The notes beneath the pieces were generated by a model, which saw only the letters and a list, made by a program, of their open reading frames with translations, made no database searches and was not told the origin of the DNA. A stretch of DNA of 34,288 nucleotides, from positions 1 to 34,288 of the IMG/VR virus record IMGVR_UViG_3300036979_000078. One strand, written 5' to 3'. The DNA comes from a virus. Numbering within the stretch: position 1 is the stretch's first letter; each line of letters opens with the position of its first letter. Positions 19,228 through 28,144 of the stretch are shown here, in pieces. Made by a program: the position numbers and the translations under genes.

Positions 19228-19410
19228 TTACTCGGAAGGCTTACAGTTAAGATTAAACACAATGCACTTGATCTTCTGATCCCTTGTCAGGTAATCGAGT
19301 TTGGGAAAGTGATGCGATAGTTCGGCATCGGTCAGTTGGTTGATCTTAACTAAGAACATCAGGTTCTTATGAGTTACCTCAACAGATTTATCAGAATGGA
19401 TTATCGTCAT
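19228..19410 (-). CDS. Hypothetical protein after the helicase (60 aa)
   Basis: Not recognised. Begins inside the last codons of the helicase gene in another frame (20-nt overlap). Sequence has helices with KNLMFLVKINQLTDAELSHH and ends FNLNCKPSE. An AT-rich 60-nt gap follows before the next promoter; no terminator hairpin is seen there. Confidence 0.55.
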   Translation of the reverse strand: MTIIHSDKSVEVTHKNLMFLVKINQLTDAELSHHFPKLDYLTRDQKIKCIVFNLNCKPSE

Positions 19411-20794
19411 TGAATTGATTTGATACGTGGTTAAATGAAGTTGATTGGATCTCTACTGGAAGGTATGAACTCATCGGCTCTTGGTTGGCATCGTAGAAGC
19501 TTGTAATGGTTGCATTGTTTCTGAACTCCACAGTGCCGGTAGATCCTTGCCGATGCTTCTCAAATAAGTAAAATGTTTCGTTGGTGTAGGGCTGCCCGTC
19601 ATCATTGGATAGGTTGTAGTAAGATGGGCGCCAAACAAAGCAAACGGTATCTGCATCTTGCTCCAATGATCCTGACTCTCTGAGGTCGGATAGCATCGGC
19701 TTCTTATCGGCTCGTTGCTCAACTTGTCGATTAAGTTGGCACAATGCAATGATCGGAATCTGCAATTCTTTCTGTGCTGCTTTAAGTGTCCTGCTGATCT
19801 CTGCCACTTCCGCCTCCCGATTACCACCCTTGAAGCCCTCTAAGGTCATTAGTTGAAGGTAGTCGATGATTACCCACTTACACTGACCTTTCCTCACTTG
19901 TTGGCGAATCACTCGGATTGCTTCATGTACTCCGCATCTTGGCTTGTCGTAAATGGTAAATGGCATCTTCTCAACTTCGCCAATGGTAGATTCAAAGACA
20001 TGGAGTTCTGGTTGATTTAGGCTGCCATCTCGCAATCTTTTGGAGTCGATGCTGCCCGTAGCATTTTGCAGGATCAATCGCTGACAAAGTTGTGAAGGAT
20101 TCATTTCGAGGTTGAAGTAGATCCCTGCTTCTTTGGATTGGATGCCATGAAATAATGCGAGTGCTGTCTTGCCCATTGATGGTCTGCCTGCTAAGATGAT
20201 AAACTCAGGCTGCCATCCTCCAGTGAATCGGTTAAGTGCAGTAAGACCAGTGTCAACTCCTGAGGTCTTGCCTTGTCGATTTAGTTCCTGCCGTCTGAAG
20301 TATGCCTCTCGCTCATCCTTAACAAGATCGGCAGTGGTGATGATGTTGGATGCTACCATGCCAGTGTCCATTAGATCGTTCAATCGCTTGATCAGATCTG
20401 TGGCTGTGATGGCTGCATCGTGCCGATCATAAAGCCCGATTGACTCCTCTGTGATTATCTGATGGATCTGTGATTTAAGGTAGATGTTTTGAAGTTCTAA
20501 GATGATGGCTTGGTGAGGCTCAAAGAATGCTGATGTGATCTTGTCAAGTGATCTGCTGATTGTGATAATATCTGCTTGATCGAGAAGCTTGGCTGTTTTG
20601 TTCTCGGTGCTTAGAAATGCTAAGTCAACGTGCTGCTTCTTTTTGTGGAGGCGTTTGATGATCTCAAATGCTTTCTTGTATCTGTCAACTGTGAAGTGTT
20701 CGTCTTTAAGTTGAACGATGATCTCGTCCTTGTGCTGATTAGGGGAGAGGATGATAGCGATGATCTTCTCTTCAAGTTCTTGTGATGTAATCAT
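19391..20794 (-). CDS. Replicative DNA helicase, DnaB family (467 aa)
   Basis: Hexameric 5'-3' replicative helicase. N-terminal helical domain (1-~150) and RecA-like domain with Walker A GRPSMGKT (203-210), catalytic Glu in FNLEM (E230), Walker B WVIIDYLQL (307-315), the Q motif LCQLNRQVEQR (351-361), LSDLRESGSLEQDAD (368-382) and FEKHRQGSTG (411-420). All key residues are present and length is normal. It overlaps the initiator gene by ATGA, forming an initiator-helicase pair. The last residues, FNDDNPF, resemble the SSB C-terminal tip (DDDIPF), unusual for a helicase. Confidence 0.95.
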   Translation of the reverse strand: MITSQELEEKIIAIILSPNQHKDEIIVQLKDEHFTVDRYKKAFEIIKRLHKKKQHVDLAFLSTENKTAKLLDQADIITISRSLDKITSAFFEPHQAIILELQNIYLKSQIHQIITEESIGLYDRHDAAITATDLIKRLNDLMDTGMVASNIITTADLVKDEREAYFRRQELNRQGKTSGVDTGLTALNRFTGGWQPEFIILAGRPSMGKTALALFHGIQSKEAGIYFNLEMNPSQLCQRLILQNATGSIDSKRLRDGSLNQPELHVFESTIGEVEKMPFTIYDKPRCGVHEAIRVIRQQVRKGQCKWVIIDYLQLMTLEGFKGGNREAEVAEISRTLKAAQKELQIPIIALCQLNRQVEQRADKKPMLSDLRESGSLEQDADTVCFVWRPSYYNLSNDDGQPYTNETFYLFEKHRQGSTGTVEFRNNATITSFYDANQEPMSSYLPVEIQSTSFNHVSNQFNDDNPF

Positions 20795-21546
20795 TTGTAG
20801 TGTTCTGTTGATGATCGGTTGAATGATACTTGCTGTGGTTTGGAGGATGTGAATTTATTGTTTCGGTCAAACACTATGCTCGTCCAGTTATTCATCACTG
20901 ATGCCTGCATTGCTTCGATTGCCTTTGCTTTATTAGTTCCGCACTCCTCCCGTATTCTTTTAACTAAAAGTTTAATGGCGTTTTTAGATGGATATTTTTT
21001 TATGCTGATTCGGTGCTTAAGGTAATCATTGAATGCAATGTTGACTTCTGGATCATTGAAGATTTTTAGTTTGTCGATTTCATTCTGCTTTTTGAAGAGG
21101 TAGGATGATTCAAGATTTTCAAAGTTGAATGTTGGTATTGATTCGATAGAATCTTCTTTTAAGTCTTTATTGTCTTGTATAGTCTTAATAGTCTTATTAT
21201 GTGTCCAAGTGCTTTCCACGTGCTTTTCATTTGCTTTCCACGTGCTATCCACGTGCTTTTCATTTAGTGGAAGGCATATTACTCTGTTCTTATATTGGTT
21301 TGTAGTCTTTGATACAGTCTCAATAAACCCAAACTCCTCTAATCTTGCAAGCGTTTTTAACATCGTAGTTCTTGAATTGATACCACAAGTTTCTTGCAGA
21401 TCAATTAAGATGATTGCAAACCTATCTTTCCATCCTGATTTATTCGCTCGGTTAAGTAGTGCGAAGTAAACGGCAGTGATGTAAGGATCTACCTTGTCAG
21501 GGTTATTTTCTATCCAGTGATAGAAATAGTTGAAGTAATTAAACAT
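20791..21546 (-). CDS. Replication initiator, winged-helix (O/DnaD-like) (251 aa)
   Basis: Probable origin-binding and helicase-loading protein. Residues ~10-94 form a winged-helix domain (ITAVYFALLNRANKSGW, TTMLKTLARLEEFGFIE). Residues ~96-119 hold two 11-aa repeats (KHVDSTWKANE, KHVESTWTHNK) encoded by the iteron array at 21204-21269. The C-terminal part (KNAIKLLVKRIREECG, MNNWTSIVFDRN) resembles phage replication proteins that bind DnaB. Start chosen at 21546 because ATGTTTAA overlaps the HNH stop by 8 nt; a longer start at 21579 is possible. Confidence 0.78.
   Translation of the reverse strand: MFNYFNYFYHWIENNPDKVDPYITAVYFALLNRANKSGWKDRFAIILIDLQETCGINSRTTMLKTLARLEEFGFIETVSKTTNQYKNRVICLPLNEKHVDSTWKANEKHVESTWTHNKTIKTIQDNKDLKEDSIESIPTFNFENLESSYLFKKQNEIDKLKIFNDPEVNIAFNDYLKHRISIKKYPSKNAIKLLVKRIREECGTNKAKAIEAMQASVMNNWTSIVFDRNNKFTSSKPQQVSFNRSSTEHYK
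21204..21269. other. 11-bp iteron array, candidate replication origin
   Basis: Six head-to-tail 11-bp units in register on the + strand: TCCAAGTGCTT, TCCACGTGCTT, TTCATTTGCTT, TCCACGTGCTA, TCCACGTGCTT, TTCATTTAGTG. The main unit contains the palindrome CACGTG. It lies inside the initiator gene, and the next ~60 bp (21140-21203) are very AT-rich. Iterons inside the initiator gene next to an AT-rich stretch is the layout of the lambda origin. Confidence 0.65.
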
Positions 21547-22072
21547 TTGCTTGGCGTATTTTATTCCAACAGATTCCACAGAAATACTTTAGACTTTGAT
21601 GCTCATTCAATTTACTGCAGGAAGTTCTCATTGCTTCACAAACTTCAGTAAATCCAATTTTATCAATAAACATTTTTATGTCGGCTCTGAATTTTGGAGT
21701 AAGGTAATAATCAGGATAGAAGTCATTGTATGCAGCCTCAACCATATCGACTAACTGCAGATTATACTTTTCAATTTCTTTAATGTGCTTAAGATATTCC
21801 TTGTATTGTTCTGCTTTTGCTGCAGCTATCAAAGCCTTATCTTGAAGTGTTGCAGGTATATTCTGCAGACTTATGTTTGATTTGCCTCTGTTGCAATCAA
21901 AACAAGACGTGAGTAAATTCTCTAATACGTTTGATCCACCTTTGCTTACTGGCAATATGTGATCGACTTCTAAAACTGTGTTAGGCGGTTTAGTGCCACA
22001 ATAAGCACAAGTAAAATCATCTCGTTTGAATATTTCAAATCTGATCTTTTTAGATACTGCAGTTCTTTTCAT
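21539..22072 (-). CDS. HNH endonuclease (177 aa)
   Basis: HNH nuclease with a zinc-binding fold: C22/C25 (FTCAYCG), D37-H38 in VLEVDHILPVSKGG, N48/N52, and C57/C60-N61 in SCFDCNRGKSN. The C-terminal ~90 residues are helical and end with KYFCGICWNKIR, a phrase seen in HNH proteins next to phage replication genes (from memory). There is no RuvC domain, so it is not IscB/Cas9-like. It may nick DNA for replication or recombination, or be a free-standing homing enzyme. ATG at 22072 chosen; a TTG two codons upstream is unlikely. It has its own promoter and a structured leader. Confidence 0.85.
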   Translation of the reverse strand: MKRTAVSKKIRFEIFKRDDFTCAYCGTKPPNTVLEVDHILPVSKGGSNVLENLLTSCFDCNRGKSNISLQNIPATLQDKALIAAAKAEQYKEYLKHIKEIEKYNLQLVDMVEAAYNDFYPDYYLTPKFRADIKMFIDKIGFTEVCEAMRTSCSKLNEHQSLKYFCGICWNKIRQANV

Positions 22073-22086
22073 TACCAAAACAAAAA

Positions 22087-22190
22087 GCCCCTTACAAGCT
22101 GCGGTAGTAGCGGATCAACAGAATCAACTGTCTTTCCTCGCAGCCCGTAAAGGGCGATAAATTTCTTTTCAATTCAGGCTACTACCTCTG
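22087..22190 (-). ncRNA. Structured RNA leader with pseudoknot topology
   Basis: The ~125-nt leader of the HNH gene has no open frame but two long inverted pairings. Helix A: 22103-22111 with 22178-22186, 9 perfect bp. Helix B: 22087-22102 with 22140-22155, 9 bp plus 5 bp around a 2x2 internal loop, one G-U. The arms are interleaved and the left arms abut at 22102/22103, as in a coaxially stacked pseudoknot; or they are alternative folds. A small 4-bp hairpin (22118-22121/22128-22131) sits in one loop. The last helix B arm is followed by TTTTTG, so one fold may act as a terminator. Confidence 0.6.
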
Positions 22191-22198
22191 AACTTCCA

Positions 22199-22206
22199 CA
22201 AAGATA
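22199..22206 (-). promoter_or_regulatory. Promoter of the RNA leader / HNH gene
   Basis: TATCTTTG preceded by a T-run, 127 nt upstream of the HNH ATG and 18 nt after the stop of the 95-aa gene. No clear TTTG at -33. Confidence 0.65.
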
Positions 22207-22223
22207 AAAAAAATAAGAACAGT

Positions 22224-27577: not shown

Positions 27578-28144
27578 TTATAGCTGTCGAGTTGCTTTCT
27601 TGACAAGCAATTTAATTGATTCATCCAATCGCTGCACACTGTCAGCAATCATATTCATAATCTCCTGCTTCTCTCTATCTGTTGCCTCCTTATGCTCCAT
27701 CATCATGCTCACCAAGCCACCAATGGAAGTCAATGGCTGTCTAAGTTCGTGCGATAGAATAAAGCGGAACTCTTCCAAAAGCATCTTCTGTCGTTCGTAG
27801 TCGTGGGCAGTGATGCTCGTAACATCAACTAAAGGTATGCCTATAAAATGCAAAGAACCCAATATAGAATAAACATTCCACATTGAGTACCTCTCAGATC
27901 CGATCTTCTGTTTGGATCGCACATACACCCGTAAAGCATCGGGCGATTTAGTCTTAGCCTTTTCAATGATTGTCAAGAACTCATCCCGATCACTATCATT
28001 GGAGGCAATGTCGAGAATGTTACTTGGCTTTAGATGGCTGCAATATTCCCTGAATAAATCATTCGATGTGAGTATTAACCCCTGCTCATCAGATATAACG
28101 TAGAATAAATCTATTGAAGATTCAAGAATGTGCAGAGATGCCAT
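27578..28144 (-). CDS. PAS + HisKA protein without ATPase domain (188 aa)
   Basis: Residues ~1-112 look like a PAS sensor domain (LFYVISDEQGLILTSND, IGIPLVDVTSI). Residues ~118-185 are a histidine-kinase dimerisation domain with the H-box RFILSHELRQPLTSIGGLV (phospho-acceptor H132) and a second helix ending VQRLDESIKLLVKK. The gene then stops: there is no HATPase domain (no N, G1, G2 boxes) and none in neighbouring frames. So it could form dimers with host kinases, accept or drain phosphate, or act as a decoy. It lies in the lysis region, one gene past the holin-like genes. Confidence 0.82.
   Translation of the reverse strand: MASLHILESSIDLFYVISDEQGLILTSNDLFREYCSHLKPSNILDIASNDSDRDEFLTIIEKAKTKSPDALRVYVRSKQKIGSERYSMWNVYSILGSLHFIGIPLVDVTSITAHDYERQKMLLEEFRFILSHELRQPLTSIGGLVSMMMEHKEATDREKQEIMNMIADSVQRLDESIKLLVKKATRQL

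Follow-up and report, generated by a model that had tools for sequence, protein, structure and literature searches.

A conserved pseudoknotted RNA element with a fast-changing but always matched helix upstream of replication genes in environmental phages

This study analyzed a 34,288-nt stretch of viral DNA (IMG/VR record IMGVR_UViG_3300036979_000078, positions 1 to 34,288; hereafter the window). Three minus-strand genes of a replication module follow the RNA described here: an HNH endonuclease gene (21539-22072; 177 aa, phrog_14314), the first downstream gene, with its start codon at 22072; a replication initiator-like gene (20791-21579; phrog_270); and a gene for a DnaB-like replicative helicase (19391-20794; phrog_19). 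Because all neighbouring genes lie on the minus strand, the RNA was assigned to that strand and read as the reverse complement of 22077-22206. The ORF list (ATG, GTG, or TTG starts; at least 50 aa) contained no minus-strand frame inside 22079-22223. Elsewhere in the window, at 27578-28144, a 188-aa phage protein matched the HisKA (histidine kinase dimerisation) domain (E 6e-9), an odd find in a phage.

Upstream of the RNA lies the putative promoter box TATCTTTG (22199-22206), which is of the Bacteroidota -7 type (TAnnTTTG) and recurs in relatives. A first-pass annotation had credited the stretch with its own promoter and no open frame, and both claims agree with this box and with the ORF list. 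The compact RNA that would be transcribed from this promoter is encoded at 22193-22077 and is approximately 115 nt long (117 nt in close relatives). It opens with hairpin P1, formed by GTTCAG (22188-22193) and CTGAAT (22172-22177), and the 10-nt P1 loop contains A1 (GGTAGTAGC, 22178-22186), the first strand of helix A. An A-rich linker (22156-22171) connects P1 to B1 (GCCCTTTACGGGCTGCG, 22139-22155), the 5' arm of a terminator-like stem. Hairpin P3 (22112-22137) sits between B1 and A2 (GCTACTACC, 22103-22111), the second strand of helix A; B2 (CGCAGCTTGTAAGGGGC, 22087-22103), the 3' arm of the terminator-like stem, comes next and is followed by TTTTTG in a T-tract (22077-22086) that would mark the RNA 3' end. 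P3 frequently retains a 2x2 internal loop rich in purines (AA/GA type; alignment columns 75-76 with 93-94), a possible protein or tertiary contact site.

The arm order A1-B1-A2-B2 causes helices A and B to cross. Helix A comprises 9 bp (-13.8 kcal/mol), and helix B comprises 17 consecutive pairs including G-U (-30.4 kcal/mol). The P1 3' arm abuts A1 directly, and A2 abuts B2, with base 22103 common to both. Because both joints lack a spacer, P1, A, and B could stack as one rod. These results confirmed the two strong, crossed pairings with abutting arms that the first-pass annotation had read as a pseudoknot; the 9+5 bp pairing reported there is helix B, in which G-U pairs join the two parts into 17 pairs, and hairpins P1 and P3 extend that description. 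The nested fold alone reached -48.9 kcal/mol, compared with -32.9 +/- 3.5 kcal/mol for shuffled sequences (z -4.5), and helix A given B had a p of approximately 0.02 in the single window sequence. With two crossing helices, each supported by compensatory changes in relatives, the RNA qualifies as an H-type coaxial pseudoknot. The GC-rich stem B and the T-tract behind it have the makeup of an intrinsic terminator, although the 35-nt loop is unusually wide, and stem B is predicted to end transcription.

The same annotation had offered an alternative in which A and B are mutually exclusive and switch the terminator; a riboswitch would be one example. A terminator directly upstream of a gene start would suit such a device, but the helices overlap by a single base and both are kept in all members; moreover, no conserved antiterminator pairing was noticed in a non-systematic look, and the hypervariability of A argues against a ligand site. 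We therefore regard a switch as highly improbable.

An exact-spacing pattern search of viral contigs yielded 25, then 61 and 67 relatives, and 50 distinct members from this search were aligned. Standard pairs occupied 95.1% of the alignment cells, and 25 of the 40 pairs exhibited changes on both sides (11 of 16 in B, 6 in P1, 5 of 8 in P3, and 3 in A); the covarying P1 pairs included CAG/CTG, CGA/TCG, and TTTGA/TCAAA, among others. The covariation score was 0.378, compared with 0.153 for shuffled and 0.04-0.073 for slid controls. Helix A was paired in all 50 members, with A1 Watson-Crick to A2 in every relative. GCGAG is invariant, and the A-rich linker contains an invariant A column. The lack of covariation that had been named in advance as evidence against the structure was thus not what the relatives revealed.

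Because the search patterns fixed some flanking bases, we took a second, RNA-blind sample of 54 loci, which were found through a nearby VRR-NUC-like protein independently of the RNA; the family name is our reading of a phrog_824 / Holliday-junction-resolvase match. Of the 54 loci, 52 gave a plus-strand match to the covariance model of the RNA. Overlapping minus-strand hits, which occur because of the inverted-repeat nature of the RNA, were ignored. The two loci without it were one that ends inside the gene (L357) and one that is short (L308). In this sample, all 28 distinct upstream sequences contained a TANNTTT[GA] box, against a background of 3%, and the position of the box varied by no more than 1 nt; all 28 distinct sequences finished with a run of at least four T. 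The promoter type suggests that the carriers, all known from metagenomes, are environmental viruses probably infecting Bacteroidota. Away from an HNH gene, a weak covariance-model match at L041 464-577 (22.5 bits; GAGGTGAGA...TACCGC) is possibly a diverged member.

The first-pass annotation could name no RNA family for the stretch, and our searches gave the same result. Rfam 15, including C4, HEARO, GOLLD, ROOL, and the group I intron, produced no hit at the gathering threshold in the window and 20 relative loci, and only chance-level matches up to E 10. A tRNA or tmRNA identity was also considered, without a match. Among sequenced phages, DNA comparison returned only chance matches of 25-45 nt, and no description of the RNA was found in open-licence papers. 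GOLLD and ROOL are structured phage RNAs with kissing interactions and no assigned function (PMC12286853); they span hundreds of nucleotides and lie near tRNA islands, in contrast to the approximately 115 nt observed here.

We then considered the relationship of the RNA to the HNH gene, whose leader it had been taken to be. Two relatives (L212 and L217) carry a 117-nt RNA that is 98-99% identical to that of the window, A-rich linker included, but lack the HNH gene and have an unrelated gene downstream; their upstream coding DNA is only 80-83% identical to that of the window. Other members precede small ORFs or methyltransferase-like or replication-initiator-like genes (names assigned by eye from translations), often followed by a DnaB helicase. 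Conversely, phrog_14314 is the first gene of replication operons (HNH, initiator, and DnaB or helicase loader) in sequenced phages of widely differing hosts (Pseudomonas, Vibrio, Escherichia, and others), where it abuts the previous gene and leaves no gap able to hold the RNA. Because the downstream gene changes between relatives and near-identical RNAs stand before unrelated genes, the HNH-leader reading was ruled out. HEARO and OMEGA RNAs likewise adjoin an HNH gene; nevertheless, the 177-aa protein here had only HNH-type Pfam matches above the cut-off, the RNA persists without it, and Rfam HEARO did not match. The RNA thus has no constant HNH partner and is usually located ahead of the replication genes, before several different genes of that module.

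The near identity of the whole RNA between phages with unrelated downstream genes, linkers included, would also be expected of a stand-alone RNA whose role is to bind or sequester a protein of the host or the phage, such as RNA polymerase, a nuclease, or a defence factor, with the pseudoknot as a rigid scaffold and variation in A as evasion. Its own promoter box and terminator and the invariant GCGAG and A-rich linker are consistent with this explanation. However, a helix that changes freely on an invariant scaffold would fit a protein that recognizes only the scaffold; we consider protein binding unlikely.

Layouts resembling this one were also found upstream of sequence-dissimilar HNH relatives. 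Of 42 such terminator stems, 17 were accompanied by a significant A helix formed with a segment upstream; among 1,151 control terminators taken from the same set of contigs, the share was 4.8%. When a loop of at least 14 nt and an A2 within 4 nt of B2 were required, the counts were 11 of 35 HNH-upstream stems and 8 of 1,006 controls; the HNH-upstream set includes a few near-duplicate loci (L008/L009 and L031/L039). Many of these loci have a good sigma-70 promoter (in L020, TTGACA-17-TAAAAT) or a Bacteroidota box just upstream. The layouts share no common sequence and may be convergent. Together, the covariation and the control terminators reject a chance origin of the RNA structure.

Helix A differed from the remainder of the RNA in its manner of change. 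The 41 distinct RNAs of the RNA-blind sample contained 15 different A sequences, yet pairs 2-9 were Watson-Crick in 41 of 41 with no G-U, whereas B and P1 held many G-U pairs. Between A classes, the median number of mismatched positions is 4 of 9, and positions 3, 7, and 9 are nearly fixed. Mapped on a tree, A1 changed 13, 8, 13, and 8 times at its four variable pairs, and A2 gave identical counts. Changes per site averaged 10.5 in variable A; the corresponding means were 7.3 (linker), 3.2 (B1), and 4.7 (B2). The variable A pairs thus change about as fast as the unpaired linkers and faster than B. On a scaffold-only tree built without A, the A class switched at least 17 times. Close pairs show the same pattern: L179 and L271 differ at 1 of 107 scaffold positions and are approximately 95% identical in their flanks, but 2 of 8 A pairs have changed; L249 has almost the same scaffold as the window RNA and another A class. 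A search of the same contigs for other targets of A revealed none above chance (10 extra 8-mers seen, 12 expected); because the pairs used for these extra-target statistics were chosen for differing A, the contrast in them is overstated, a selection that does not apply to the RNA-blind pairing and the tree counts. On one 52-kb contig (record G427), two replication modules each have their own RNA copy (L303 1011-1132 and L304 1096-1222); the copies differ in A class (GGTGGAATC and GGTCGAAGC), and the first has a changed B top (TTTACG/CGTAAA).

Free variation combined with perfect matching is confined to A, which makes a self-recognition code its most likely role. We tentatively favour, with somewhat less than even confidence, the reading that the element is a regulatory RNA of the replication module that stands alone and ends in a terminator, that its variable A helix distinguishes self from non-self, and that it acts in cis and perhaps in trans. 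The main rival is neutral drift in a purely cis-acting pseudoknotted attenuator, in which the sole task of A is folding of the terminator, leaving the A sequence free to drift, perhaps with templated repair between the inverted repeats. The coaxial geometry with its zero-nt joints, the constant perfect pairing of A, and a rate of change in A that is similar to, and not far above, that of the linkers are all compatible with this rival. Nevertheless, the 41 RNAs show double changes in A at no less than the single-site rate and not one intermediate with a G-U or mismatched pair, B and P1 do show G-U pairs and mismatches, and positions 3, 7, and 9 of A are nearly fixed; we judge the rival somewhat unlikely. 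Several points weigh against the self-recognition code: the nearest partner of A1 is A2 of the same molecule, which would compete with pairing in trans; the fast evolution of A could be neutral if only complementarity matters; and it could arise by templated copying between inverted repeats.

A regulatory RNA with such a code might operate as follows. A discrete RNA of approximately 115 nt would be made from its own promoter and end at its own terminator, stem B. On the nascent chain, P1 would form, and its loop strand A1 would capture A2; the stacked A helix would then help the wide-looped stem B to close. A small stable RNA would be released, and few polymerases would reach the replication genes. 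Because the RNA is located before these genes, it would hold down read-through into them. Accumulated RNA might use A1 or A2 to pair with transcripts newly made by the same type of phage and so damp the replication operon, and the targets in trans may include sibling genomes. The outcome would be control of copy number or timing and possibly interference with superinfecting phages of the same type.

Small RNAs that control replication operons are known from plasmids, in whose copy-control RNAs the loop sequence defines the compatibility type. ColE1 RNAI acts on such an operon, and pIP501 RNAIII attenuates repR in the leader (PMC4981023), a mode that we propose here as well. Those RNAs are antisense and come from the opposite strand, so that their complementarity is automatic; in the present element, both halves lie in one sense RNA, the promoter box and T-tract share a strand with the replication genes, and selection must keep the halves matched. 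Among phages, P4 CI RNA terminates transcription of the replication genes prematurely by pairing with seqA and seqC (PMC4825925). As with P4 CI RNA (seqA-seqB-seqC) and P1 C4 RNA, a small RNA with complementary segments in one leader heads a phage replication operon here; the difference lies in the single contiguous pseudoknot with a terminator, with no Rfam match and no integrase. The resemblances to P4 CI RNA and pIP501 RNAIII are analogies rather than membership.

Immunity RNAs of the P4/P1 type are carried by temperate phages and act from the prophage. No tyrosine integrase was present in 44 records, many of which are fragments, and a pre-filtered search of 395 Bacteroidia genomes identified no prophage carrying the RNA. 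A search for hosts carrying two prophages that differ in A class found no prophage, and the HNH protein led to none. One RNA pattern run across the genome contigs returned only chance matches without the P1/B/T-tract context. Because neither a tyrosine integrase nor a prophage was found in these records and genomes, classic lysogenic (prophage) immunity is unlikely.

Pairing between molecules could also serve assembly rather than regulation, with A1 and A2 joining RNAs into rings or chains and the variation of A keeping rings to one type. Two complementary loops in a single phage RNA of approximately 115 nt, variable yet complementary, recall the pRNA of phi29, which is approximately 120 nt long. 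The loops of that RNA form 4 bp and its role is packaging, whereas the helix described here has 8-9 bp, stacks contiguously, and is joined to a terminator at a replication locus. The phi29 pRNA multimerises through its two complementary loops (PMC7357161). In the present RNA, the zero-nt joints favour intramolecular pairing, and the RNA sits with replication and not packaging genes, which makes self-assembly very unlikely.

The RNA is nearly universal in this environmental phage group and absent from Rfam, and it exhibits an uncommon behaviour: on a scaffold that is otherwise conserved, one helix changes repeatedly and yet never mismatches. It is possible, though on balance doubtful, that it represents a new class of phage RNA whose hypervariable, perfectly self-complementary code mediates self/non-self recognition and interference at replication among virulent phages, and that dissimilar analogues precede replication modules in phages unrelated to these. 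Use of the code in trans would give virulent phages a compatibility system based on RNA and resembling the incompatibility of plasmids. If confined to action in cis, the RNA would still constitute a new family of pseudoknotted phage attenuators, for which a covariance model is ready.
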